Assembly: GCA_009788065.1 (NCBI GenBank)
Contig: WQSF01000010.1
Location: 1 to 50,321 of the forward strand
Length of the DNA stretch: 50,321 nt
From: Treponema sp.
GTDB lineage: Bacteria; Spirochaetota; Spirochaetia; Treponematales; Breznakiellaceae
Direction of reading: 5' to 3'
Within the stretch, counting starts at the first letter, position 1. Each line of letters begins with the position of its first letter. Shown here one piece after another: positions 15,619-28,087 of this stretch. Both the position numbers and the translations under genes were made by a program. The notes under the pieces are model-generated. The model made no database searches. It was not told the DNA's origin and saw only the letters and a program-made list of their open reading frames with translations.

Positions 15619-16389
15619 ATGATAGAAAAAACGATACACTATGTTTGGCTTGGGAGCAGGGAAATTCCTGAAAAGTATAGCGCTTTTATACGCGGCTGGC
15701 GGGCGTTTCATCCTGACTGGGAAATAATCAAATGGAATGAAGAAAATTTTGACTGCGAGGGCAATTCCTGGGTTAAAACAGCAATCGAACAAAAAAATTG
15801 GGCGCTTGCCGCTGATGTTATGCGAAGTTATATTCTTTTACACCACGGCGGCGTTTATCTGGATACCGACATCGAACTTTTTAAACCGCTCAACGATTTA
15901 ATAACCGAAAACGACTTTTTTATCGGATATGAAACGGATTTTTGGTTTGGCTGCGCTGTTTTGGGTGCGAAAAAAGGGCACAGAATAATCAAGGAAGTGT
16001 ACGAGAGGTACCTTACGCCCTGTGAAAAACTTGACAACAGTTCAAATATGTTATGCGTTTTAAATTTCAGCGCTTCGATTAAAAGGCTTTATAACTCCAA
16101 ATTGGACGGAAAAACCCAAAAAATACAGGACAACGCTTTGCTTCTTTCGCCGGAATATTTCTTTCCAAAAAATTACATAACCCACAGGATAAAAATTACT
16201 GACAATACAATGGCGATACACCACCTCTCGTCAATATGGTACTCTTTAGGTAAGCGGATAGGAATAAAAATCGCCAAAGGTTTGCGGCTGATTCTTGGAA
16301 GATATATATTCGGCTGTTTTGAAAGAATTGCAAGGTTAAATATGCTTGGGAAACTGGATAGAGAATACAAAAAGAAATGCCGGAAATAA
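15619..16389 (+). CDS. Sugar-nucleotide glycosyltransferase, DXD sugar-binding family
   Basis: The 256-residue protein starts with IHYVWLG and contains WALAADVMRSYILLHHGGVYLD-type sequence leading into the DTD motif at residues 82-84. This is the pattern of the DXD-containing Gly_transf_sug family (OCH1-like, also capsule and toxin glycosyltransferases). The DXD motif binds the metal and sugar nucleotide. No signal peptide is present; a basic C-terminal tail may lie on the inner face of the membrane. It is the first gene of the AT-rich acyl/glycolipid cluster, directly after a good promoter. A role in adding a sugar to a lipid or polymer is inferred from context. Confidence 0.85.
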   Translation: MIEKTIHYVWLGSREIPEKYSAFIRGWRAFHPDWEIIKWNEENFDCEGNSWVKTAIEQKNWALAADVMRSYILLHHGGVYLDTDIELFKPLNDLITENDFFIGYETDFWFGCAVLGAKKGHRIIKEVYERYLTPCEKLDNSSNMLCVLNFSASIKRLYNSKLDGKTQKIQDNALLLSPEYFFPKNYITHRIKITDNTMAIHHLSSIWYSLGKRIGIKIAKGLRLILGRYIFGCFERIARLNMLGKLDREYKKKCRK

Positions 16390-16419
16390 AAAATTATAAG
16401 AATAAATTAGGAATATTTA

Positions 16420-18348
16420 ATGGGAAATTATGCTAAAATCATCAAGGAAGACATTAGCGCGATTTTAAAGTCCGACAAAACATTAAAGGATGTTTACAGT
16501 GTTATATTTTCACATTCAAACTTTATTGCCTATGAAAAACTTGTTGATTATGAAATTAACGCGGTAACCTATGCGGCGTATGATTTAGAGATAAAGGCGT
16601 TTGCCGCATATATAAAACATACGTACCCAAACGCTGCCTCGGAATATATAGGTATCGATCTTGGCAATACACCGAATTTTTTAATTGCGTTTTGGGGTGT
16701 TTTAATGAGCGGGAACAAACCGTACTTAATTAATTCATTTTACACACTGGAACTTAGAATAAAACTTCTTAAAAAATTGAATGTTAAACTCGTGATAACA
16801 GGCTCCGCCGACTATAACGATTTTTCAATAATAAATATCGATTTTTTTAATAAAAAATGCCCGCAAATAACAGATGAATTTTGGGAGAATGAATTTGCGC
16901 TTTCCTCCGCACTGACGGGGCTTGAAGCAAAGATTTGCGTATTTGACGGAGAGGCTGTTGTAAATCAAATATTATGTACCCCGAACATGATTAAAACCAA
17001 TAAGTGGCTGATAAACGACTACCAAAAAAGAATCAAGGTTGCCATGATTGTGCCGCTTTTCCACATTTTCGGAATAATGGCGAGTTATTTTTGGTTCGCC
17101 TTTTTCGGGCAAACAATGGTTTTTCTAAAAGACAATTCACCGGACACTATCAGGGGAACGATAAACAGGCACAAGGTGACGCATATTTTTGCACCTCCGA
17201 TTTTGTTCCATAAATTATATAGAAGTATAATAAACGGTATTTCGCAGGAAAGTGAAAAGAGAAAAAAGAAATTTAAAAAAGGGATAAAACTCAGCTTTTC
17301 CTTACAAAATATATTTCCTTCGTTCGGCGTCGCGGTTTCAAGAAAACTTTTTAAAGAAGCTCTTACCGCCTCGTTCGGAATGTCGCCGAGGTTTATGATT
17401 TCTGGCGGTGCGCATATAGACTGCGAAGCGCTAAAAATTATTAATTGTATCGGTTATCCTCTTTTTAACGGTTACGGTACGACGGAAACGGCGATTACCG
17501 GAGCAAATTTTGCATTAAAAATAGATACAAGAACCAGCGGCTCAATCGGGAATCCATTTAAAAATGTAAGCTATACATATGACGAGGATGAAACTTTAAC
17601 TGTTTCGAGCGACGCAGTTTGCAAACGAATAATCTCGCTAGACAGCGAACTGTTAAACGATGAGGAAAGCGCCGGAGATTGCGCGGTTAAAACAAATGAT
17701 CTAATAAAAATAATAGACGGCCAGCTTTTTGTTATCGGACGAAAGAATGATCTGTATGTCGGTGAAAACGGTGAAAATATCAGTCCCGATGCAATTCAAA
17801 ACAAATTAAGTGTTAAAATCGCAAACAGATTTTGCGTTTTAGAGATAGACGGAAGGCTTTCCATTGTCCTTGAGTATAATAAAATAATGCCGGGCGATAT
17901 TATCGCTAAAGAAATCGAGCAAATAAAAAACACACTGGCAAAAATTGACTGCGGGCATTATGTTAGCGATATTTTTGTGACATATGAGCCCATTGCAAGT
18001 CAAAATACGATAAAAGTTTCTCGCGCTCTTCTTAGAAAAAACATTGATGAGGGCGAGGTTATATTAAAAGAATATAAAAAATTATGCGGCGGTGAAAAAA
18101 GACAAAACGACGGGTATGAAGATGAAACAATGTCGGTAATCAGGCAGGCGTTTAAAAAAGCGGCGGATACGGACGCGGAGATTCGATCTAACGAAGACTT
18201 CTTCCTGGATTTAGACGGTGATAGTCTTGGTTATTTTTCGCTTGTTTGCGAACTTGAAAGTATATTTAACATTCAATTTAATCCTGAAAAAAACAAGGGC
18301 TTGCGCACTCCGGGTGATTTTTATAATTACATAAAGGAAATGCTATGA
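16420..18348 (+). CDS. AMP-dependent acyl/aryl ligase fused to an acyl carrier domain
   Basis: The 642-residue protein has an ANL (acyl-CoA synthetase/adenylation) domain over residues 40-540 with the diagnostic FNGYGTTET motif and the late IGRKNDLYV segment that carries the hinge region. The usual P-loop-like S/T/G-rich motif is not obvious and appears degenerate. The last 80 residues form a carrier domain in which DGDSLGY places the phosphopantetheine serine at about residue 602. The enzyme would activate a carboxylic acid with ATP and load it onto its own carrier arm. It is followed by an overlapping (ATGA) acyltransferase gene, which could take the loaded acyl group. The acid substrate is unknown. 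Confidence 0.85.
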   Translation: MGNYAKIIKEDISAILKSDKTLKDVYSVIFSHSNFIAYEKLVDYEINAVTYAAYDLEIKAFAAYIKHTYPNAASEYIGIDLGNTPNFLIAFWGVLMSGNKPYLINSFYTLELRIKLLKKLNVKLVITGSADYNDFSIINIDFFNKKCPQITDEFWENEFALSSALTGLEAKICVFDGEAVVNQILCTPNMIKTNKWLINDYQKRIKVAMIVPLFHIFGIMASYFWFAFFGQTMVFLKDNSPDTIRGTINRHKVTHIFAPPILFHKLYRSIINGISQESEKRKKKFKKGIKLSFSLQNIFPSFGVAVSRKLFKEALTASFGMSPRFMISGGAHIDCEALKIINCIGYPLFNGYGTTETAITGANFALKIDTRTSGSIGNPFKNVSYTYDEDETLTVSSDAVCKRIISLDSELLNDEESAGDCAVKTNDLIKIIDGQLFVIGRKNDLYVGENGENISPDAIQNKLSVKIANRFCVLEIDGRLSIVLEYNKIMPGDIIAKEIEQIKNTLAKIDCGHYVSDIFVTYEPIASQNTIKVSRALLRKNIDEGEVILKEYKKLCGGEKRQNDGYEDETMSVIRQAFKKAADTDAEIRSNEDFFLDLDGDSLGYFSLVCELESIFNIQFNPEKNKGLRTPGDFYNYIKEML

Positions 18349-19313
18349 ACGCGGTTTTATATTATTCTCATCTTGCAATAGCATTGCTCCTTCAGGTATT
18401 TTTGTTCAAGACTAAAACTTATTATGAGGACAGCCGCAGAGAAAATAAAAGAATTAAAGGCAGCGCCGTAATTATATCAAATCACCGCTCCCCATTGGAC
18501 GGTCTTGTTATCGCGCTTAGGTACTTTTATAAAAGATTGCACTTTATTGCCGAAAATTTTTACAAGTACAGATTGAAAATAGTAAAGTTTATTTTAAGCG
18601 TAGCAGGGGGGATTTTCGTTGACAGCGAAGTTAAAAATTTGGATTTTATTGAAAAAAGCAGGAAGATAGCCGCAAAAGGCAGAGCTATTATGATTTTTCC
18701 AGAGGGCGGTTTTAAGCATACATACGAGCCGATTAAATTTTCCGCAGGATATATAATGCTTGCGATTAAAATGGGAGTAAAAATAGTTCCGATTGTTAAC
18801 GATTTTAATTACGGGCTCTTTAAGAGGGTGCGCTTAATGATTGGAAACGGCATAGATTTATCCGGCTATTCAAACGCAGAACTTACCAAAGCAAAGCTTA
18901 AAGAAATAAATGATGAAATATATAATAAATTTTTGGCGCTTTTCTATGAATTAAAAAGGAAAAAAGCTGAAAAATTTTTGTTTAAATACGAATTTGTCCA
19001 ACCTAAACCTGGTGATGTCGTCCGCGTTAATGCCGGTTCTTACTGCCATTACGGCGTGTATTTAAGCGCCAATGAAGTTATTCAATTTGGCTGCGCCGTA
19101 AACAAAGCGGGAGAAAATATAGTTGTCAATTCTGTTTCTTTAAGTGAGTTTTGCGGCGCTAAAATTCCCGAAGTCCGCGCGATCAAAAAGCGATTTATCA
19201 GAAAATTAGATGACATAGAAAGGTATGCAAGGTCCTGTCTTGGACAAGGCGGATATAGCTTAATAAACAACAACTGTTTTGATTTTGCAAATAGAGTTAC
19301 TCTGAAAATTTAA
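18345..19313 (+). CDS. PlsC-type acyltransferase fused to an LRAT-like (permuted papain) domain
   Basis: Residues 1-205 form a lysophospholipid-type acyltransferase with the HX4D motif NHRSPLD (His47, Asp52) and FPEGG at 118-122, plus an N-terminal membrane helix. Residues 220-322 form a second domain with GDVVRV, then CHYGVYL (His235), VIQFG, and finally NNNCFDF (Cys311). This His-then-Cys order and the NC..F pattern match LRAT/H-rev107 relatives of the NlpC/P60 superfamily, which shift or hydrolyse acyl groups through a thioester on Cys. Both halves therefore act on acyl chains. It overlaps the AMP-ligase/ACP gene by 4 bases (ATGA). I do not know this fusion from characterised proteins. Two-step acyl transfer or lipid remodelling is inferred. 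Confidence 0.8.
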   Translation: MNAVLYYSHLAIALLLQVFLFKTKTYYEDSRRENKRIKGSAVIISNHRSPLDGLVIALRYFYKRLHFIAENFYKYRLKIVKFILSVAGGIFVDSEVKNLDFIEKSRKIAAKGRAIMIFPEGGFKHTYEPIKFSAGYIMLAIKMGVKIVPIVNDFNYGLFKRVRLMIGNGIDLSGYSNAELTKAKLKEINDEIYNKFLALFYELKRKKAEKFLFKYEFVQPKPGDVVRVNAGSYCHYGVYLSANEVIQFGCAVNKAGENIVVNSVSLSEFCGAKIPEVRAIKKRFIRKLDDIERYARSCLGQGGYSLINNNCFDFANRVTLKI

Positions 19314-19329
19314 AGAGGAAGAATATTTT

Positions 19330-20298
19330 ATGCATAATCCCTTGGTAATTACCGGTATTTATGCAGCCGTCATTATTGCGGCTGTCAGCGTACTTGTATT
19401 CCTGCTTTTAGTTTTGTTGATTTTTTTAAATACCACATACCGCAGTCCCTTTAAAAAAAGAATCAGAGAGTGCACAAGAAAAAAAGACGAATCACAAATG
19501 TGTATGTTTTCCGAAGGAGTGGCATGGTCGCAAAAATTTAAGGATGTAACAGAGCAACTTCATATAGTAAGCGAAGGTCTTAATTTATACGGCGAATATA
19601 TTAATTTCGGGTTTGACAAATGCGCTGTAATCCTGCAGGGAAGGGGAGAGTCGCTGATCTATTCTTACTATTTTGCCGATGTTTACGCTAAAAACAAACA
19701 AAATATTCTTGTTTATGATGTTCGCTCGCATGGTCTTAGCGACGGGAAATATCAAACCGGAGGCATAAAGGAAAGTGACGATTTAATTTTATGGATTAAA
19801 TTGATAAACGAAAAATATAATATATCTGATTTTACAATTCACGGCATTTGTATCGGCGGCGCGACGGCGGTTTATGCGTATAGTAAACTTAAAAACGAGG
19901 GTAACGGTTTACTGAAGAGGATAGTGATTGACGGATTATATAAAAGTTATTACGAGTTATTTAAAGCCCACCCCAAAGCTTATAAAGTACCTATACTCCC
20001 TGTTGTTTACGCCGCTACTTATGCGGTTTTTTTTCTTATATTTATACTTGCTAAAGTCAGACCTTTTAAGGAAACTCCGTTAAAATATATGAAAGATATT
20101 GATATTCCGATTTTATTTATCTGGAGCGCTATGGATAAATTTTCCGCTAAGCCGGACAGCGAAGAACTGTTTAAAGCGTGCGCGTCGGAGCATAAAGAGA
20201 TTTGTTTTTTTCCCAAAGGCAGACACTCGCATGTCAGGGCTTCACAGAAAACGGAATATGATGATTTAATCGCCAATTTTTTAAAAAAGCATATGTAA
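19330..20298 (+). CDS. Membrane-anchored alpha/beta hydrolase with Cys nucleophile
   Basis: The 322-residue protein has one N-terminal membrane helix (residues 8-33) and an alpha/beta hydrolase domain. The strand YDVRSHGLSDG and the nucleophile elbow HGICIGG (Cys174) are visible, with an acidic residue around WSAMDKFS and the histidine in GRHSHV. The family normally has GxSxG; a GxCxGG elbow is known in dienelactone hydrolase. In this context it may release or trim an acyl chain (thioesterase or esterase). It lies 16 bases after the PlsC-LRAT gene with a good GAGGAAGA ribosome-binding site. Catalytic activity with Cys is inferred and not certain. Confidence 0.8.
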   Translation: MHNPLVITGIYAAVIIAAVSVLVFLLLVLLIFLNTTYRSPFKKRIRECTRKKDESQMCMFSEGVAWSQKFKDVTEQLHIVSEGLNLYGEYINFGFDKCAVILQGRGESLIYSYYFADVYAKNKQNILVYDVRSHGLSDGKYQTGGIKESDDLILWIKLINEKYNISDFTIHGICIGGATAVYAYSKLKNEGNGLLKRIVIDGLYKSYYELFKAHPKAYKVPILPVVYAATYAVFFLIFILAKVRPFKETPLKYMKDIDIPILFIWSAMDKFSAKPDSEELFKACASEHKEICFFPKGRHSHVRASQKTEYDDLIANFLKKHM

Positions 20299-20339: not shown

Positions 20340-23018
20340 GTGCTAAAAAAAATACTTTTAATTGTATTGGCGGCATTTGTCATAACTCCGCTGTTATCAG
20401 AGGAGAACATCAGCTCCGCAGGAGCCTCGGTGCGGGTTACCCGCGATGTGGAGATCGTTGTTGTAGATGCCGAACTTGACCTGCCTCTTAAGAGCGCAGT
20501 TATACGTTCATGGGATGGGAGCGTCTATATATGTAATGAAGACGGCATAGCCGTTATTACCGCGCCTGATGACAGACAGGTTGTAATTCAAGCGTCTTAT
20601 CCCGGCTATGTTACAGGAAGACTTGTTATTTCAATACAGACAAATAATTATATATTGGAGCTTTTATTATCGGGTATATTACAAGCCCGTGAACTGGTGG
20701 TGGAAGCGCCCAGATATGCCGCAAATGAAACAAGAACAGGGAGGAGCACCGCGATTTCCGGGCAGGATATAAGTCAGACTTCTGAAATTAGCGGTGTCGA
20801 AGATGCGATAGCTTCCGTTAAACTTCTGCCGGGTATAATCGCTACAGAATTTGCCGACGCCATGCCGAGCATTCGGGGCGGAGAGCCGCAGGACGTAAGC
20901 GCGTCACTTGACGGTTTTTATATTGATTTTCCGTATTATTGGGGCGGCGCTTTTTCGATTTTTGATCCGCGCATGGTAGAAAGCGCGCAACTCTCTCACG
21001 GGGTTTTCTCCAGCCGCCACGGAAACACCATTTCCGGTTTAATTGACATAACAGGTAAAAAACCGTCCCCGGCTGAAACTGAAGCTGAATTAGGCATCAG
21101 CGCAAGCGCGGTCAGCGTTAACCTTTCCTTCCCGCTTATGGGTAAGGGCGGTATTTTATTCATGGGGCGCGTTACTTACATCGATCCGTTTGTCGCTCTT
21201 GCAAAGCAAGCAGTTAAAATACCCGGATTTCCCGATGACCTTGCAGATTTAATAAACTCGATAAAAACGGCGCCATTTATCAGAAGCGCAACCGCGACTG
21301 GGAATTATCGTTTTACCGGCAAGCTTGAATTACGCGCTACGGCTTTCTTTGGCGCCGACGGCGTTGGAGTAAAATACGAAAATTCATTCAATATGGACGG
21401 TCTTAACGGTAATGAAAAATTTTTATTCGATTATACCCATTATCAGGGATTTTTAACAACGTCTCTTCTTCTGACCCCCCGAAGCGATATGCTTGTAAAG
21501 TTTTTTGCAGGGGCAGGTTTTCAGGATAAAAATTATGAAGAAGAAGAAAGCAGTGATATTTACGAGAAATATTTTTCACAAAATTTTAAAGACAAATACG
21601 GTGTTTTAAATGATCCGGAACTTGCTGATTTAAACGCTCCTTACATTTTATCAACAGAAACAATATCCGCAAATTCTGAATTAGTTAAGAACATACAGGG
21701 GCGGCTTGATTATGACTGGGAGATTGCAAACGGTTTTTTATTTGCCGCAGGTTTGCAGGAAATGATTAAAATACGCAGAGTATCAGGCACTCAAAATAAA
21801 CGCATAGAAAACAGATTGAGCGATTTTGATGATAAAGAATCAATTTTTATTTCCATGGGCATCTTACCTGATGATCCGCGCCGCGTTTTTCTGGAAGATT
21901 TTATAATTGTAAGCGCTCCCGCTGTTATAAACTACGATATTCCCGGTAATACTGTTTTTACTTCATCGCTCTACGGACTTATCGAATACAATTCGCCTGC
22001 AAGGCGGTTTGGCTCGGAGCTAGGACTGCGCATAGATCACTATTACCTTTTAGGCGGCAGTCTATCGCTTGGGACAAGGCCGGTTTTAAATCCAAGGCTT
22101 AATCTGGATTTTAATATTTTAAGAGACCGCTTCATTTTCGAATCTATAAACTTAACCGCGGGAACGGGTCTTTTTTCGTCTATGCCGGATATGGCAATGG
22201 CGGAAGAGCAATTTTTAATAAATGAAATTAAACCAACCCGTTCATGGACATCCGTTGTTGGAGCCGAACTGAAATTTTCTTACGGAATGTTTATCAATAT
22301 CGAAGGTTATTACAAACACATATATGACAGAATGTACGCCCCTTTAAATTTTAATCTTGAAGGCAATGCTGACACTCAATATTATTTTAACGGCAGAGGA
22401 AGAAGCTGGGGAATTGATCTGATGCTGAAAAAGAACCGTTCCCGGTTTTGGGACGGATGGATTTCATATTCTTATAATTGGACACAACATCGTGATCCGG
22501 ATGCGGGAGACTTTGAAACGAGTATAAATTCTAAAGCCATAAGCAATGATTGGTATTTTCCATATTACCATCGTTTTCATTCTTTGAATCTTGTTTTGAA
22601 TGTAAGGCCGGTTCAGCGCATTAATATATATATCCGTTTCGGACTTGCAAGCGGAGAGCAGATTTTAAAACGCGCCGGCTCGGGACCGGAAAGTTATCCC
22701 GTATATGTATACGATTCTCATACAGATAATGGATATTTTATCGAAAAATATTACTGGAACGAAGAGCGCGATAAAGACAACCGCACGACTCCGTTTATGC
22801 AAATGGATATAAAAATATCTTTTTTTTACAGTAATAAAGCGGGAAGGGTAAGGTTCGAAGCGTATTCCGCTCTGGAAAACATACTTTCACTTTTATACAC
22901 TTCTCAGGGGAACACCTATTTTAACCCGTACACAGGCGAAGTTGCCAAGGGAAGAACTTCGGCAAGTTATAGTCTGCCTTTTCCCATACCTTCTTTTGGT
23001 TTTAAATTCAGTTATTAA
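20340..23018 (+). CDS. TonB-dependent receptor-like outer-membrane protein
   Basis: The 892-residue protein has a signal peptide (LLIVLAAFVITPLLSEE), a carboxypeptidase-regulatory-like beta domain (residues 30-115), a plug domain (130-235, with SIRGGEPQDVSASLDGF) and a long beta-barrel ending in the aromatic residue of FGFKFSY, as expected for BAM-assembled outer-membrane proteins. No clear TonB box is visible at the N-terminus. It may import a ligand or serve as an outer-membrane conduit linked to the adjacent lipid-export genes. The start is GTG 20340; the best SD-like run (GGGGTGG, 20314-20320) is about 20 bases upstream, so an ATT start at 20331 or 20334 is an alternative. Confidence 0.85.
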   Translation: MLKKILLIVLAAFVITPLLSEENISSAGASVRVTRDVEIVVVDAELDLPLKSAVIRSWDGSVYICNEDGIAVITAPDDRQVVIQASYPGYVTGRLVISIQTNNYILELLLSGILQARELVVEAPRYAANETRTGRSTAISGQDISQTSEISGVEDAIASVKLLPGIIATEFADAMPSIRGGEPQDVSASLDGFYIDFPYYWGGAFSIFDPRMVESAQLSHGVFSSRHGNTISGLIDITGKKPSPAETEAELGISASAVSVNLSFPLMGKGGILFMGRVTYIDPFVALAKQAVKIPGFPDDLADLINSIKTAPFIRSATATGNYRFTGKLELRATAFFGADGVGVKYENSFNMDGLNGNEKFLFDYTHYQGFLTTSLLLTPRSDMLVKFFAGAGFQDKNYEEEESSDIYEKYFSQNFKDKYGVLNDPELADLNAPYILSTETISANSELVKNIQGRLDYDWEIANGFLFAAGLQEMIKIRRVSGTQNKRIENRLSDFDDKESIFISMGILPDDPRRVFLEDFIIVSAPAVINYDIPGNTVFTSSLYGLIEYNSPARRFGSELGLRIDHYYLLGGSLSLGTRPVLNPRLNLDFNILRDRFIFESINLTAGTGLFSSMPDMAMAEEQFLINEIKPTRSWTSVVGAELKFSYGMFINIEGYYKHIYDRMYAPLNFNLEGNADTQYYFNGRGRSWGIDLMLKKNRSRFWDGWISYSYNWTQHRDPDAGDFETSINSKAISNDWYFPYYHRFHSLNLVLNVRPVQRINIYIRFGLASGEQILKRAGSGPESYPVYVYDSHTDNGYFIEKYYWNEERDKDNRTTPFMQMDIKISFFYSNKAGRVRFEAYSALENILSLLYTSQGNTYFNPYTGEVAKGRTSASYSLPFPIPSFGFKFSY

Positions 23019-23030
23019 AAGTTCATTGCG

Positions 23031-23059
23031 TTGACAAACATAAAAATCTTGTATATAAT
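23031..23059 (+). promoter_or_regulatory. Perfect-consensus sigma70 promoter before the DUF3261 gene
   Basis: TTGACA (23031-23036) and TATAAT (23054-23059) are separated by exactly 17 bases, the ideal sigma70 promoter. The expected transcript start near 23066 is almost on the ATG at 23068, so the message may be leaderless. It would drive the DUF3261-LolA-MMPL export genes independently of the upstream ones. Confidence 0.75.
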
Positions 23060-23067
23060 AATGACAT

Positions 23068-23640
23068 ATGCGCGCTATGAAGCTTCTTTTCTTTTTCCCG
23101 GTCTGCGTTGTCTGCGTTCTTTCATGCGCGTCAGGCGCCGGAAAAGGCGCGTTAAGTGTAAATATTACAGACAACTCAAAATTCGTTTTGCTGCCTCCGC
23201 AAGGAATTGAACAAGCCATGGACATGGCTCAATATTTATCTACCGAATTCATGGGACATAGTATTTTCTTAACTTCCTGGGTAAAAGCGGATGAAAACGC
23301 AATAGAGATGACTTTATTTAACGAGCTGGGCGCAAGTATGGGAGAGCTTTCTTACAAAGACGGCGCGGTTCATTTCTCATCGACTGTTATTCCAAAATCC
23401 TTTATGAGGGCTTTTAAGCCTGAATATATTATAGCCGATTTTCAGCTTTGTTTTTACGATCCGGTCATGCTAAGCAATTCACTGAAAGACAGCGGTCTTG
23501 TTTTTGAAACTAAGGACGGCGGCCGCCGTATTTTAAACGGGAATGAAGTTATAATAGAGATTAAAAAAACGGAGAATACTGTTGAACTTGTAAATTATTT
23601 AAAGAAATACTCTTATACTCTGGAGGGAGATTTTCATTGA
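23068..23640 (+). CDS. DUF3261 lipoprotein
   Basis: The 190-residue protein has a lipoprotein signal with a lipobox ending VLSCAS, so it should be lipidated at the Cys around residue 20. The pattern IIADFQLCFYD followed by a predicted helix and RRILNGNEVIIEI matches DUF3261, a small beta-rich lipoprotein family usually encoded next to LolA-like and MMPL genes in aryl polyene-type clusters. Here it is followed by exactly those two genes. No ribosome-binding site precedes either ATG 23068 or the in-frame ATG 23077, consistent with a leaderless start. Its function in those clusters is unknown to me beyond the export or anchoring association. Confidence 0.75.
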   Translation: MRAMKLLFFFPVCVVCVLSCASGAGKGALSVNITDNSKFVLLPPQGIEQAMDMAQYLSTEFMGHSIFLTSWVKADENAIEMTLFNELGASMGELSYKDGAVHFSSTVIPKSFMRAFKPEYIIADFQLCFYDPVMLSNSLKDSGLVFETKDGGRRILNGNEVIIEIKKTENTVELVNYLKKYSYTLEGDFH

Positions 23641-23679
23641 ATCCGATAGCGACGGCTGTTTCAATAAAGATAAAATGTT

Positions 23680-24333
23680 ATGAAAAGAAAAAGTAAAATA
23701 TTATTTCTATGTCTTTTTTTTATAATTTCTTCGGTATGGGCGCAGGAAGATGTTTTCCGTTATCCGCTTACGGCGCAGACCATGAATACTTTTAATACAA
23801 CTTTTGCGAATCTTGCGGAGAAACCTATTATCAAAGGAAATTTTGTACAGGAGAAATACTTGAACCGCTTTGATAGATCGCTTGTTTCTTCCGGCAATTT
23901 TATAATCGCGGTAGAGCAGGGTATGGTTTGGGAAACATTAAAACCTTTTCCTTCTACAATGATACTTGGAAAGAACTTTATTATGCAGTCAAGACCGGAC
24001 GGGCGAAAATCTGTTATAAGCGCTCAGGGGAACGAAACCTTTACTCAGATGGCTGATGTTATAAGCGTTGTATTTTCCGGTCAGAGTCAAGGGCTTTTAG
24101 AAAACTTTAAAGTTTACTTTTTAGGCAGTGTTTCTAATTGGAATATGGGGCTTTTACCCCGTGACAGCGCTTTTGCTTCTTTTGTTGCGAAGATAACAAT
24201 GAGCGGTGATTCCGCGATACGATCTATACGATTATTCGAACAAAGCGGCGATTTTATAACATATACGTTCTCAAACCTTAGTAATCCGTCTGGACTTAGC
24301 GATCATGAAGAAGCTTTTTTCTCAATTCCATAA
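23680..24333 (+). CDS. LolA-family carrier protein
   Basis: The 217-residue protein has a signal peptide (KILFLCLFFIISSVWAQ) and a LolA/LppX-like fold: a helix followed by KGNFVQEKYLNRFDR, SSGNFIIAVEQGMVWET and several beta strands forming a half barrel with a hydrophobic groove. LolA chaperones lipoproteins across the periplasm; cluster-encoded paralogues are thought to carry lipid products. Because the gene sits between DUF3261 and an MMPL exporter, the second role is more likely. The next gene starts inside its end with a 29-base overlap. Confidence 0.85.
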   Translation: MKRKSKILFLCLFFIISSVWAQEDVFRYPLTAQTMNTFNTTFANLAEKPIIKGNFVQEKYLNRFDRSLVSSGNFIIAVEQGMVWETLKPFPSTMILGKNFIMQSRPDGRKSVISAQGNETFTQMADVISVVFSGQSQGLLENFKVYFLGSVSNWNMGLLPRDSAFASFVAKITMSGDSAIRSIRLFEQSGDFITYTFSNLSNPSGLSDHEEAFFSIP

Positions 24334-26680
24334 TTTAATGCTTCAAAAGAAGCAGGGTATGTTCCTTACTCTTTGGTTTTTGTTACATTTGGGCATCCCC
24401 GCTCTGTTGGGTCTGTCGTTGTTTTTCGCGCCTCCTTTAAGTTTAAGCACACAACTTTTGGATTTGCTTCCGAATAGAGATATGTCAAAAGTTGCCGAGG
24501 CGGACAATGTTCTTACAGAAAGAAACGGCCGTGAAACAGTCATCCTTTTTGCGTCTCCCGTTTTTGAAAAAGCTAAAGATACGGCTGTTTCTTTTTATAA
24601 TGAATTTAAAAACGCCGAAGGGGTTGATAGCGCCTCTCTTCTTTTTGATTCTCACGCTATCGCAGAAATTACCGAGTATTTCTACAAATACCGTTTTGTT
24701 AATGCCGGAAAAAGCACCATTGAATTGCTTGAATCAGGCAATACCTCAGAAATTGCTATGGATGCTCTGGCTTCGGTTTATGGAGCGTTTAATTTTATTC
24801 CGCTTGATAATATAGACAAAGATCCTTTTCTTCTTACTGAAAGACGGATGAGAGAATTCCTTTCATCGTCTATGCTTGCAAGCGGGAACCTTGGCATCAA
24901 AGAAGATGTTTTATCTGTCCAAAAAGACGGGATTTGGTATGTTATCCTTAGAATGACGCTATCCTCTCAGGCGGTTTCTGTCACCAATATTGCAAACAAT
25001 ATCGTTTCAGAAATTTATTCCGCCGCGGCGTTGATTAAAGAAACCGAACCGGAATTAAAATTATATTTTTCGGGATTTCCTTTTCACAGTTACGAAAGCG
25101 CTTCCAGTACGCAAAAAGAAATAACCATTCTCTGTACTATTTCGCTGGTTTTTATCCTCTTGCTTTTTTTATTAATTTTCCGTTCGCCCATTCCTGTTAT
25201 CTTTTCGATACTGGATGTATTAATTTCTTTGGTGTTATCAACAACCGCCGTTTTCTTAATTTTCAGAAAAATTCATGTTTTCACATTTATTTTTGGCACA
25301 ACCTTGATAGGAATATGCATAGATTATTCTATTCATTTTTTTATTTCATGGCGGGGAAACGCCGCGTTAAAAAGCGGAAATGAAGTTCGTTCTTCCATTT
25401 CCAAGAGCCTTTTAATGTGTTTTATATCTTCTACAATTTGTTTCTTTTCCATTCTCTTTACGCCTTTCCCCATTTTTAAACAATTTTCAGTTTTTACAAT
25501 GGTAGGATTAATCAGTTCTTATCTTACCGCCAACTGCATCTTTCCTCTGTTAAAACTGCCTGATGAAAATAAAAGGCATCTTAAATTTCTGGATAGAAAA
25601 AAAATATTTATATCTCCTGTATTTAAAATAATATTTGCTTCGGTTTTGGTCGCAATAATAATAATTATTCTTTGCTTTAATCCCCATGGTATGAAAATAA
25701 AAACCGATCTAAATTCTCTTTACACAATGTCGCCATTCCTTGAAGAATCGGAAAAACAAGCGGCTGTAGTTCTGGATCACGGCTCGTCACCATGGTATTT
25801 TATTATTTCCGGCGCTACCGCAGAGGAAACTTTGGAGAACGAAGAGCGTCTTACCCTGCAGTTAGAAGAAGAAATCGCTAAGGGGAATCTGGGATCATTT
25901 CTGGGAACTTCGATGTTTGTCCCTTCGCTGGAAAAACAAAAAAAAGCATATAAAGCCATGAGCGCTCTTTTGCCTCTTGCCGGATTGCAATACAAAGACC
26001 TTGGATTCCCGTCTGAATATGAAGAAATGTTTTATAGAGAATTCAATAAAGGAGAAATTTATTATTCTCCAGAAGATGACATAGCTTTGGCGGAGGTTTC
26101 TAATCTTTGGATAGGTGAAATAAACGGATTATATTATTCTTGTGTGTTTCCTTTTCATGCTAGAGATACATTCATATTTAAAGCCATTGCAGATGAACAT
26201 GATTCTGTGTATTTAGTTAACAAGGAAGAAGATATAAACCGCGATTTAGACACCCTTACAAGGTTTATTGTGTTGTTGTTTTTTATAGCTTATTTTATTA
26301 TTGCTGTTATAATTTTTATTATTTATCCATTAAAAGAGAGTATAAAAATTTGTATAACTCCTGTTTTGGGAATACTCGCCGTTTTGGCTGTCCTGGCTGT
26401 TCAAAATATATCCTTGGGGTTTTTACCGATTTCCGCTCTTATTTTAGTTTTTGGCTTGGGAATTGATTTTAATATTTTTATGTCCGGCAACAAAAACGGA
26501 AAAGAAAAAAAACTTGTACGCCTTGCGGTGTTTTTATCTTTTATTACATCAGGACTTTCATTCGGCATTTTAACTTTTAGCAAGTTTACGCCGGTTAATA
26601 TTTTTGGGTTTACTGTCGCGGCGGGATTGGCGGCGGCATTTTTATTCACAATGCTTTTGCATGGAATAGCGGATGATTAA
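24305..26680 (+). CDS. MMPL/RND-type lipid exporter
   Basis: The 791-residue inner-membrane protein has the duplicated RND layout: one membrane segment near residue 20, a periplasmic loop, five segments around 265-420, another segment at about 445, a second periplasmic loop and five segments around 635-785. The GTTLIGICIDYSIHF segment in the first half and LILVFGLGIDFNIF in the second are the paired TM4-like motifs with Asp that couple to the proton gradient. MMPL proteins flip or export lipids. With the adjacent LolA-like and DUF3261 genes it forms the export module of aryl polyene-like clusters. The substrate here is not known. Confidence 0.88.
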   Translation: MKKLFSQFHNLMLQKKQGMFLTLWFLLHLGIPALLGLSLFFAPPLSLSTQLLDLLPNRDMSKVAEADNVLTERNGRETVILFASPVFEKAKDTAVSFYNEFKNAEGVDSASLLFDSHAIAEITEYFYKYRFVNAGKSTIELLESGNTSEIAMDALASVYGAFNFIPLDNIDKDPFLLTERRMREFLSSSMLASGNLGIKEDVLSVQKDGIWYVILRMTLSSQAVSVTNIANNIVSEIYSAAALIKETEPELKLYFSGFPFHSYESASSTQKEITILCTISLVFILLLFLLIFRSPIPVIFSILDVLISLVLSTTAVFLIFRKIHVFTFIFGTTLIGICIDYSIHFFISWRGNAALKSGNEVRSSISKSLLMCFISSTICFFSILFTPFPIFKQFSVFTMVGLISSYLTANCIFPLLKLPDENKRHLKFLDRKKIFISPVFKIIFASVLVAIIIIILCFNPHGMKIKTDLNSLYTMSPFLEESEKQAAVVLDHGSSPWYFIISGATAEETLENEERLTLQLEEEIAKGNLGSFLGTSMFVPSLEKQKKAYKAMSALLPLAGLQYKDLGFPSEYEEMFYREFNKGEIYYSPEDDIALAEVSNLWIGEINGLYYSCVFPFHARDTFIFKAIADEHDSVYLVNKEEDINRDLDTLTRFIVLLFFIAYFIIAVIIFIIYPLKESIKICITPVLGILAVLAVLAVQNISLGFLPISALILVFGLGIDFNIFMSGNKNGKEKKLVRLAVFLSFITSGLSFGILTFSKFTPVNIFGFTVAAGLAAAFLFTMLLHGIADD

Positions 26681-26710: not shown

Positions 26711-27859
26711 TCAGCCTACCTTTCTGTCTTTCCAGAAAAAACCTTTGCCTGATACCGATCTATACCACGACCATCCTGCCATGTAAATTAGATTAAGATA
26801 CATAATAGGCCATAAAAAACTATAAAGCCAGTTTATTTTCAATTTTAAAAACGTGATTATCCATGCGAGGGAATAGAGTACAACAACGGTGAGTATATAC
26901 AATGTCCACGGACTTGATTTAATAATGCAGAAGATTAAAAGAGGAAAAGGAAAAAATAAAAAGAAGAAGAAGATTAATATCATAATAAAAATAAGAAAAC
27001 CGCTCTTTCCAAAAAAATCAAAAGTGTTTTTTCCAATACCTTCTATTGCCTGCTTGTATCCGTTATACATACGGCATTTAATGTGATCGCAGATATTTAA
27101 AAAGCGGGTGTTATATCCTTTCTTTTTTACAAGACGGGAAAGAAAAATATCTTCGCTTGTTTTTTTTCTGAACGCTTCGCAGCCTCCGATATCGTCGAAA
27201 ACACTTCGTTTAATTATAATAAATTGACCGATTGCCGCGGAAAACCAGTTTACTTTTTTTACATAACGATTGAAAGAAAGCGGGATAACAAATACTCCTA
27301 AAAAAAACATTGCAGGAACTGTGAGAATTTCTCCTAAAGAACCGAATATCTGTCCGATATAACCGGAAATTAAATCAACTTTAAGCCCTGCAAGGTTATT
27401 AACTGCCCATGCGATACTTGACGGTGTGTGTATTGTATCCGCGTCAGTAAAAATTAATATTTCTCCCTTTGCCTGTTTTGATAACTGGTGCATGGCAAAA
27501 GGTTTACCGTACCAGTCGGAAGGAAGGCTTTCTCCGTTTATTACTTTTACGCGGCTGTCTTCATTTCCGATACGGTTTAAAATATTTAATGTACCGTCTG
27601 TTGAATTGTCATTCAACACCAGAATCTCGAAATTTTTATACGATTGGTTTTGAAGTGATTTTATACAACATTCTATATTTTTTTCTTCGTTACGCGCGGG
27701 AACAAGCACGGAAACAAACGGCTCGTTAATAATTTTTGAAGATATAGAAAACCGCCGCATTTCATAATGGTTTACAAGAGAGAGCAGGAAAAAATAAAAA
27801 GCAGCCGCTGTCAGGACTGGATAATAAAATCGGCTTAGTAATTCTATCAGCTCTGTCAC
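26711..27859 (-). CDS. GT2-family glycosyltransferase, CrtQ-like, membrane-bound
   Basis: The protein is a family 2 glycosyltransferase with SVLVPARNEE, VLNDNSTDGT and the metal-binding DAD in FTDADT, then an ED motif (KKTSEDIFLSR) and three to four C-terminal membrane segments. The LPSDWYGKPFAMHQL stretch resembles carotenoid or hopanoid-linked glycosyltransferases (CrtQ, HpnB). It probably glycosylates a lipid at the inner membrane. I prefer the start GTG 27859, which overlaps the upstream stop as GTGA (382 residues). A TTG at 27898 would add 13 residues but follows an in-frame TAA directly and lacks a ribosome-binding site. Its 3' end is 30 bases from the MMPL stop, with no hairpin between. 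Confidence 0.85.
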   Translation of the reverse strand: MTELIELLSRFYYPVLTAAAFYFFLLSLVNHYEMRRFSISSKIINEPFVSVLVPARNEEKNIECCIKSLQNQSYKNFEILVLNDNSTDGTLNILNRIGNEDSRVKVINGESLPSDWYGKPFAMHQLSKQAKGEILIFTDADTIHTPSSIAWAVNNLAGLKVDLISGYIGQIFGSLGEILTVPAMFFLGVFVIPLSFNRYVKKVNWFSAAIGQFIIIKRSVFDDIGGCEAFRKKTSEDIFLSRLVKKKGYNTRFLNICDHIKCRMYNGYKQAIEGIGKNTFDFFGKSGFLIFIMILIFFFFLFFPFPLLIFCIIKSSPWTLYILTVVVLYSLAWIITFLKLKINWLYSFLWPIMYLNLIYMAGWSWYRSVSGKGFFWKDRKVG

Positions 27860-28044
27860 ATTTCGTCCGATGATATTTGGCAACGTAAAAGCGAACAATT
27901 AATAGAGCTAAGACTGCGCCTGGCCTTGGCTAATTTAAAAACCTGAAAAGCAAGCGGCGTAAACGCGATTTTCTGCGCTTCATGTCTTGCATCTATTGCT
28001 CTAATATTATCATTAAAGTAGTTTTTATTATTATATATTGACAT
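27856..28044 (-). pseudogene. Methyltransferase N-terminal remnant, coupled to the GT2 gene
   Basis: A 62-residue frame starts at ATG 28044 with AGGA five bases upstream. Its residues NDNIRAIDARHEAQKIAFTP and the following LAFQVFKLAK resemble the N-terminal region of a class of SAM-dependent methyltransferases in which 'AQkIAFaPlvFQ' precedes the dimer helix. The rest of such an enzyme (about 250-300 residues with the glycine-rich SAM site) is missing; after residue 42 the sequence is unrelated and ends at TGA 27856-27858, which overlaps the GTG of the GT2 gene. I interpret it as an internally deleted gene whose expression signals still serve the glycosyltransferase. It could instead be a genuine small protein. 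Confidence 0.45.
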
Positions 28045-28057
28045 AACATTCCTGTAC

Positions 28058-28087
28058 ATCATAACGTTTTTCATGGTTTTTTGTCAA
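28058..28087 (-). promoter_or_regulatory. Sigma70 promoter of the remnant-GT2 pair
   Basis: On the minus strand TTGACA (28087-28082) and TATGAT (28063-28058) are separated by 18 bases. The predicted start near 28051 is about 7 bases before ATG 28044, so the leader is extremely short and would begin inside the AGGA motif. Confidence 0.6.

Follow-up and report, generated by a model that had tools for sequence, protein, structure and literature searches.

A single protein of 322 residues, encoded by a spirochaete genome, joins a PlsC-type acyltransferase to an LRAT domain. With a probability of about 0.5, we read this fusion as a membrane-bound bifunctional lipid enzyme that would deacylate and reacylate a membrane lipid within an Aas/LplT-like module. 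The reading builds on direct observations: two domains whose catalytic residues are conserved, their fold and operon, and the retention of PlsC and LRAT as separate neighbours in other bacteria. The gene lies in a stretch of DNA of 50,321 nucleotides (hereafter the window, meaning the whole stretch analysed). This comes from a spirochaete metagenome-assembled genome (MAG) of 2.1 Mb, in 98 contigs and 70% complete, whose close named relatives are Treponema MAGs. All features are listed in Table 1.

To our knowledge, bacterial LRAT-family proteins are poorly characterised beyond LnsA and a few effectors. Through the fusion and its split relatives, a single clade of LRATs becomes linked to a defined acyl-ACP pathway, and so function becomes testable. 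The lipid-processing gene set containing the fusion is apparently undescribed so far; the literature searched, with subscription papers outside its coverage, held no account of a PlsC and LRAT fusion or operon.

Table 1. Coordinates of features in the window and, where a locus handle (L number) is given, at related loci.
Feature	Position	Strand	Details
GT32-type glycosyltransferase (Gly_transf_sug)	15619..16389	+	PF04488 1.3e-16; cassette gene 1
AMP-forming ligase with fused C-terminal ACP (ligase-ACP)	16420..18348	+	PF00501 7.7e-28; PF00550 6.1e-6
ACP (phosphopantetheine) domain of ligase-ACP	about 18136-18333	+	
PlsC-LRAT fusion	18345..19313	+	322 aa; ATG at 18345, stop ending 19313
PlsC (LPLAT) domain of fusion	18435..18797	+	residues 31-151; PF01553
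PlsC motif H47/D52	18483-18500	+	
PlsC motif FPEG	18696-18707	+	
LRAT domain of fusion	18999..19298	+	residues 219-318; PF04970
LRAT residue H235	19047-19049	+	
LRAT third residue Q247	19083-19085	+	
LRAT residue C311	19275-19277	+	
Membrane-anchored alpha/beta-hydrolase	19330..20298	+	PF12146 1.6e-10; Cys-nucleophile box HGICIGGATA; cassette gene 4
TonB receptor plug protein	20340-23018	+	
DUF3261 protein	23068-23640	+	
LolA2-flexi-like protein	23680-24333	+	
MMPL exporter	24305-26680	+	
FlxJ-family methyltransferase remnant	27856..28074	-	NF053543 5.2e-5; profile 2-39 of 352
LRAT-PPTase fusion	L155:8729-9772		
LRAT-PPTase fusion	L157:8879-9925		
LRAT-PPTase fusion	L059:8851-9864		

The fusion gene and its two domains

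Both halves of the protein exceed the relevant Pfam cut-offs (E-values are for the whole protein). The PlsC family, PF01553, is matched with 72.4 bits against a cut-off of 23 (E = 4.1e-20). For LRAT, PF04970, the score is 44.5 bits against 24.3 (E = 2.3e-11), and loci L077 and L079 also pass. The opposite-strand frame, over the same interval, is interrupted by stops. An initial annotation of this DNA had described a chain of this length with PlsC and LRAT-like parts; Pfam and fold matches bear this out. Its placement of HX4D (H47-RSPL-D52), FPEGG (residues 118-122), His235 and Cys311 is exact in the translation.

The catalytic residues are well conserved. Thus His47, Pro119-Glu120-Gly121, His235 and Cys311 are invariant among aligned fused homologues, in line with the initial annotation, which had staked its assignment on conservation of the last His and Cys. 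The HX4D and PEG motifs are intact in 11 of the 12 fused members, the exception being a Bacilli copy (L160) with HX4N. In comparisons where dS was not saturated, dN/dS was ~0.1-0.2 for both halves, indicating purifying selection. An assembly artefact was considered and ruled out, given the identical full-length frame in 11 other genomes (12 in total) and the selection on both halves.

With TIGR00530 (1-acylglycerol-3-phosphate acyltransferase), the PlsC half scored 56.2 bits, far under the cut-off of 102.95; hence, we leave the acceptor unassigned. The Aas equivalog, NF005959, was not reached either (24.5 versus 886 bits), the ligase being encoded by a separate gene. Compared with known PlsC/LPLAT enzymes (PF01553; Thermotoga PlsC, 5kym), the fusion shares the HX4D and PEG motifs, the fold and an N-terminal membrane helix, but differs by its C-terminal LRAT domain and its score below the TIGR00530 cut-off.

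Predicted fold and LRAT catalytic site

An AlphaFold2 model was built on an eight-member alignment. Mean pLDDT is 63, with the LRAT half at ~80 and the PlsC half at ~50. The top Foldseek matches were Thermotoga PlsC and human HRASLS3/PLAAT3 and PLAAT4. Using VIA-align, the LRAT half (residues 218-322) was matched to human AdPLA/PLAAT3 (4fa0) with a Z score of 14.1 and an rmsd of 2.2 Å, over 98 residues. Across PLAAT3 and PLAAT4 structures, Z was 13-14 and rmsd about 2.2-2.6. The PlsC half (residues 4-210) matched Thermotoga PlsC (5kym) with Z 9.1 and rmsd 4.4; many unrelated VIA-align rows, at Z 4-5 for this half, were left out. The fold proposed earlier for residues 215-322, of the NlpC/P60 or LRAT kind, is therefore what the PLAAT3 match indicates, with His before Cys.

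The catalytic site departs from that of LRAT/PLAAT proteins (HRASLS; human PLAAT3). While the permuted NlpC/P60 fold and the His...Cys order are shared, the fusion has Gln/Glu in place of His as third residue, NNNC[FL]DFANR in place of NCEHF, no C-terminal hydrophobic anchor, and PlsC attached. In sequence alignments with HRASLS2, His235 falls opposite the first His and Gln247 opposite the second. Gln or Glu fills the third catalytic position in all operonic and fused LRATs examined, as against His in nearly all stand-alone spirochaete LRATs. Note that, according to a published mutagenesis summary, the third residue of LRAT is possibly non-essential (PMC3142127). Only a 4-residue tail follows the Cys helix of the fused LRAT. 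Four stand-alone spirochaete LRATs (L010, L033, L038 and L042) end in a hydrophobic tail, resembling the PLAAT anchor, which operonic and fused LRATs lack.

The altered motif, NNNC[FL]D versus canonical NNCEHF, and the Gln/Glu third residue might mean that LRAT here is without catalytic activity, and binds lipid or acts as a scaffold. This is very improbable, in our view the least probable reading we considered, since His and Cys are invariant in all 12 members and dN/dS is near 0.1-0.2 where measurable.

A conserved cassette surrounds the fusion

Using family profiles built here, we found four genes common to the fused copies: GT32, ligase-ACP, PlsC-LRAT and alpha/beta-hydrolase. The ligase-ACP and fusion genes overlap by 4 bp (ATGA). 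The ligase-ACP gene lies directly upstream in all cassettes examined, so that the coupling claimed by the initial annotation extends well beyond the window. Across the ligase-ACP family, the A10 Lys and the ACP Ser are conserved. In the fused lineage, A5, A8, A10 and the ACP Ser are intact, but the A3 P-loop is degenerate (SSALTGLEAK in the window copy). Because of this, activity of the ligase-ACP is not certain. The hydrolase has a Cys-nucleophile box, of the HGICIG type, in nearly all main copies. PHA synthases likewise have Cys in place of Ser in the nucleophile box. Hence, going by this motif, the cassette hydrolase might also work through an acyl-Cys.

Three further Treponema genomes (G015, G020 and G571) encode the full fusion, as do Bacillota. 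Cassettes of G020 and Bacillota also contain a FakA-like protein, DegV, and glycosyltransferases of the MGDG-synthase and GT2 types; an MFS_2 transporter lies within two of them. The window has a trimmed, four-gene cassette, with FakA, DegV, MFS and MGDG genes missing beside it. A DegV query of the 70%-complete window genome, in a search without a positive control, gave no match. At 37%, the G+C content of the cassette (15619-20298) is below the 42% of the window, as would fit mobility.

The glycosyltransferases raise an alternative: glycolipid maturation. Here, GT32 and the MGDG-synthase-type enzyme would add sugar, PlsC would acylate the glycerol or the sugar, and LRAT would move a second chain between lipids. 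This last step corresponds to the intermolecular acyl transfer suggested in the initial annotation, where it would close a hypothetical relay of acid to ACP and ACP to glycerolipid. GT32 accompanies nearly all fused copies. In G015, G020 and G571, as in Oscillospiraceae and most copies from Bacilli, it keeps its place in the cassette; genes of the MGDG-synthase-like and GT2 kinds occur in Bacillota and G020. Even so, we consider the scheme unlikely. Neither GT32 nor the MGDG-type gene is found in the split systems of Bacilli and Clostridia, described below, so that glycosylation is no inherent part of the PlsC/LRAT pairing.

PlsC and LRAT as separate neighbours, and LRAT-PPTase fusions

Elsewhere in Bacilli, the fusion profile finds its best matches in separate neighbours, in the order ligase-ACP, PlsC, PlsC, second ligase (LIG2), ACP, LRAT. 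In total, 10 of 25 Bacilli LRATs are beside PlsC; by a rough binomial estimate, assuming a 3% background, the probability by chance is ~1e-9. One LRAT classed as isolated (L118) has its PlsC 4 kb away, and the match is weak. By eye, the 'isolated' Bacilli LRATs adjoin CTP synthase-like and ROK kinase-like genes, not lipid genes. Operonic, fused and PPTase-fused LRATs share one side of a branch in the LRAT tree (SH-aLRT 96). Since LRAT is missing from some operons that have this ligase-ACP and a double PlsC (L162-L164, L167 and L168), it is an add-on. Tandem PlsC-PlsC fusions also occur in Bacilli operons of this type (L104:9182-10489, L162, L164 and L167).

In Clostridia, and one spirochaete (G410), LRAT is instead fused to a 4'-phosphopantetheinyl transferase (PPTase; PF01648 in L155), with a free ACP gene adjoining. 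The L155 operon runs ligase-ACP, PlsC, PlsC, LIG2, ACP, LRAT/PPTase, hydrolase, DegV, MFS, FakA, hydrolase. An MFS gene is present in several of these operons.

These arrangements bear on what LRAT might act upon. Conceivably, Cys311 takes the acyl group from the phosphopantetheine thioester of ACP, and passes it to the PlsC product or to water, for transfer or proofreading. Orthologous LRATs are fused to PPTase beside a free ACP gene, and every complete LRAT-bearing operon of the split type also holds an ACP domain. However, the PPTase fusion may reflect operon adjacency alone, and those LRAT/PLAAT and permuted NlpC/P60 lipid enzymes that have been characterised take acyl groups from phospholipids (PMC4624172, PMC12994826). 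We thus give an ACP-directed LRAT a low probability.

Proposed function and closest known systems

Our preferred reading is a lipid-acylation module that resembles Aas and depends on ACP, with a PLAAT-like acyl-Cys enzyme built into it. Deacylation and reacylation are favoured by analogy to Aas-LplT, in which Aas (PlsC plus acyl-ACP synthetase) works with the transporter LplT, a characterised analogue (PMC11416262). The likeness is in the PlsC domain, the putative acyl-ACP synthetase and, in several operons, an MFS-type transporter. The systems differ in that ligase and ACP form a separate protein here, LRAT, GT32, FakA/DegV and PPTase are added, and the MFS gene belongs to the MFS_2 family.

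Briefly, the N-terminal helix and PlsC domain would, on the cytoplasmic side of the membrane, transfer an acyl chain to a hydroxyl group on a lyso- or glycero-lipid. The donor would most likely be the ACP of the co-translated ligase-ACP. Judging by the enzyme families, the LRAT domain would use Cys311 as nucleophile, His235 as base and Gln247 (or Glu) as third residue, forming an acyl-Cys intermediate. It would strip an acyl chain from a membrane lipid, or transfer it; the direction of remodelling and the lipid are inferred. Together, the two domains could perform Lands-type exchange in one chain. Where the FakA and DegV genes are kept, their fatty-acid handling would supply this lipid salvage or remodelling module. 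FakA-like and DegV proteins, present in most cassettes, recall the FakAB fatty acid kinase, but are combined here with ligase-ACP, PlsC and LRAT. The arrangement suggests deacylase and reacylase as a single working unit.

Two other bacterial systems offer partial likeness. Tox-Act1, a permuted NlpC/P60 enzyme that acts on the acyl chains of phospholipids, has been shown to be a phospholipase for PE and PG (PMC12994826). Unlike the fusion, it is a secreted antibacterial effector with an immunity protein, has no PlsC fusion, and lies outside a lipid operon. LnsA, of lipoprotein N-acylation in S. aureus, is also a permuted NlpC/P60 acyl-handling enzyme in a bacterium. However, export is predicted for LnsA, and LnsB is its partner, whereas the fusion has a PlsC-type membrane helix. 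Annotation of the mapped fusion neighbours showed no LnsB-like gene. We give a role in lipoprotein N-acylation little weight, as LRAT would be tied to a cytoplasm-facing PlsC.

Flexirubin-type neighbours in Treponema

Flexirubin/aryl-polyene-type envelope genes, of the kind at 20340..26680 in the window, are linked to the cassette in three of four Treponema copies, but lie outside the core system. For G015, a complete flexirubin/aryl-polyene-like cluster encloses the cassette, with KS, dehydratase, FlxJ-family methyltransferase, tyrosine ammonia-lyase-like and LolA2-like genes. In G571, genes of the cluster type adjoin the cassette. The FlxJ remnant in the window adjoins a GT2 gene, and is a 5' piece covering the first ~39 profile positions; G015 has an intact homologue (L053:2722-3861, 1.1e-131). 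For the flexirubin cluster KS, the assembled window genome (G000) has no close match, the best being 38%. The sequence suggests that a flexirubin-type cluster in the window has decayed or been deleted.

Might the fusion then tailor a pigment, joining a flexirubin or aryl-polyene acid to an outer-membrane lipid anchor? Copies in the window, G015 and G571 are beside LolA2-flexi-like, DUF3261, MMPL and flexirubin-type genes, and G015 adds the ammonia-lyase, KS and FlxJ-type methyltransferase. Nevertheless, this role is highly improbable. The window methyltransferase is a remnant, the KS match is just 38%, and flexirubin-type genes are absent from G020 and all Bacillota copies. Because of this absence, the flexirubin cluster does not define the function of the fusion.

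Distribution and movement between phyla

Among 200 genomes of the family, four encode the full fusion (G000, G015, G020 and G571). The LRAT half, used to scan 84,980 species genomes, picked out eight loci, all eight with the PlsC fusion. These are Treponema G015, G020 and G571, two Oscillospiraceae, one Clostridiales, one Bacilli and one Candidatus Fibrimonas contig, the last being only 3.7 kb and possibly misbinned. Searches at family and class level found further fused copies in Bacilli (G830, G1119 and G1124). The total is 12 full-length fused genes, across Treponema, Oscillospiraceae/Clostridiales, Bacilli and the Fibrimonas-binned contig. Note that all are from metagenome bins, where binning errors are possible. 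Genome G1127 was left out of the full fusions; an LRAT piece is in a cassette there, but the frame upstream looks like that of a Wzc-like protein. In the LRAT tree, the 13 fused-lineage rows are on one side of a branch (SH-aLRT 99), consistent with the fusion having arisen once.

In a concatenated tree of four proteins, G020 grouped with Oscillospiraceae; the copies of the window, G015 and G571 went with the Clostridiales one. Monophyly of Treponema was rejected (AU p 0.0019). Since the AU test rejects Treponema as one clade, these sequences indicate that the fused cassette has moved between phyla. Binning errors could affect this picture, although, by eye, genes flanking the G020 cassette, for instance, resemble ruvA, ruvB and queA. 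The pattern suggests that spirochaetes and Bacillota sharing a gut have exchanged a lipid trait.

Tentatively, and with somewhat less confidence than we place in the enzyme itself, we propose a horizontally mobile, undescribed lipid acyl-exchange system of gut bacteria. In this, ligase-ACP would feed one or two PlsC proteins, and a Gln/Glu-triad LRAT subfamily would pass on, or recycle, acyl chains via a cysteine thioester. If so, the PlsC and PPTase fusions would show CoA/ACP-type and acyl-Cys-type transfer coupled in one bacterial pathway, and the mobile system would make a new membrane lipid or constitute a one-polypeptide Lands cycle.

Searching viral contigs with the fusion found no relatives, and a plasmid search matched the PlsC half only. 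One Lachnospira eligens plasmid has a cluster (L084:8962-15530) of PlsC, ligase, ACP, patatin, flavodoxin, SGNH hydrolase and PlsC genes, in which patatin may be the deacylase.
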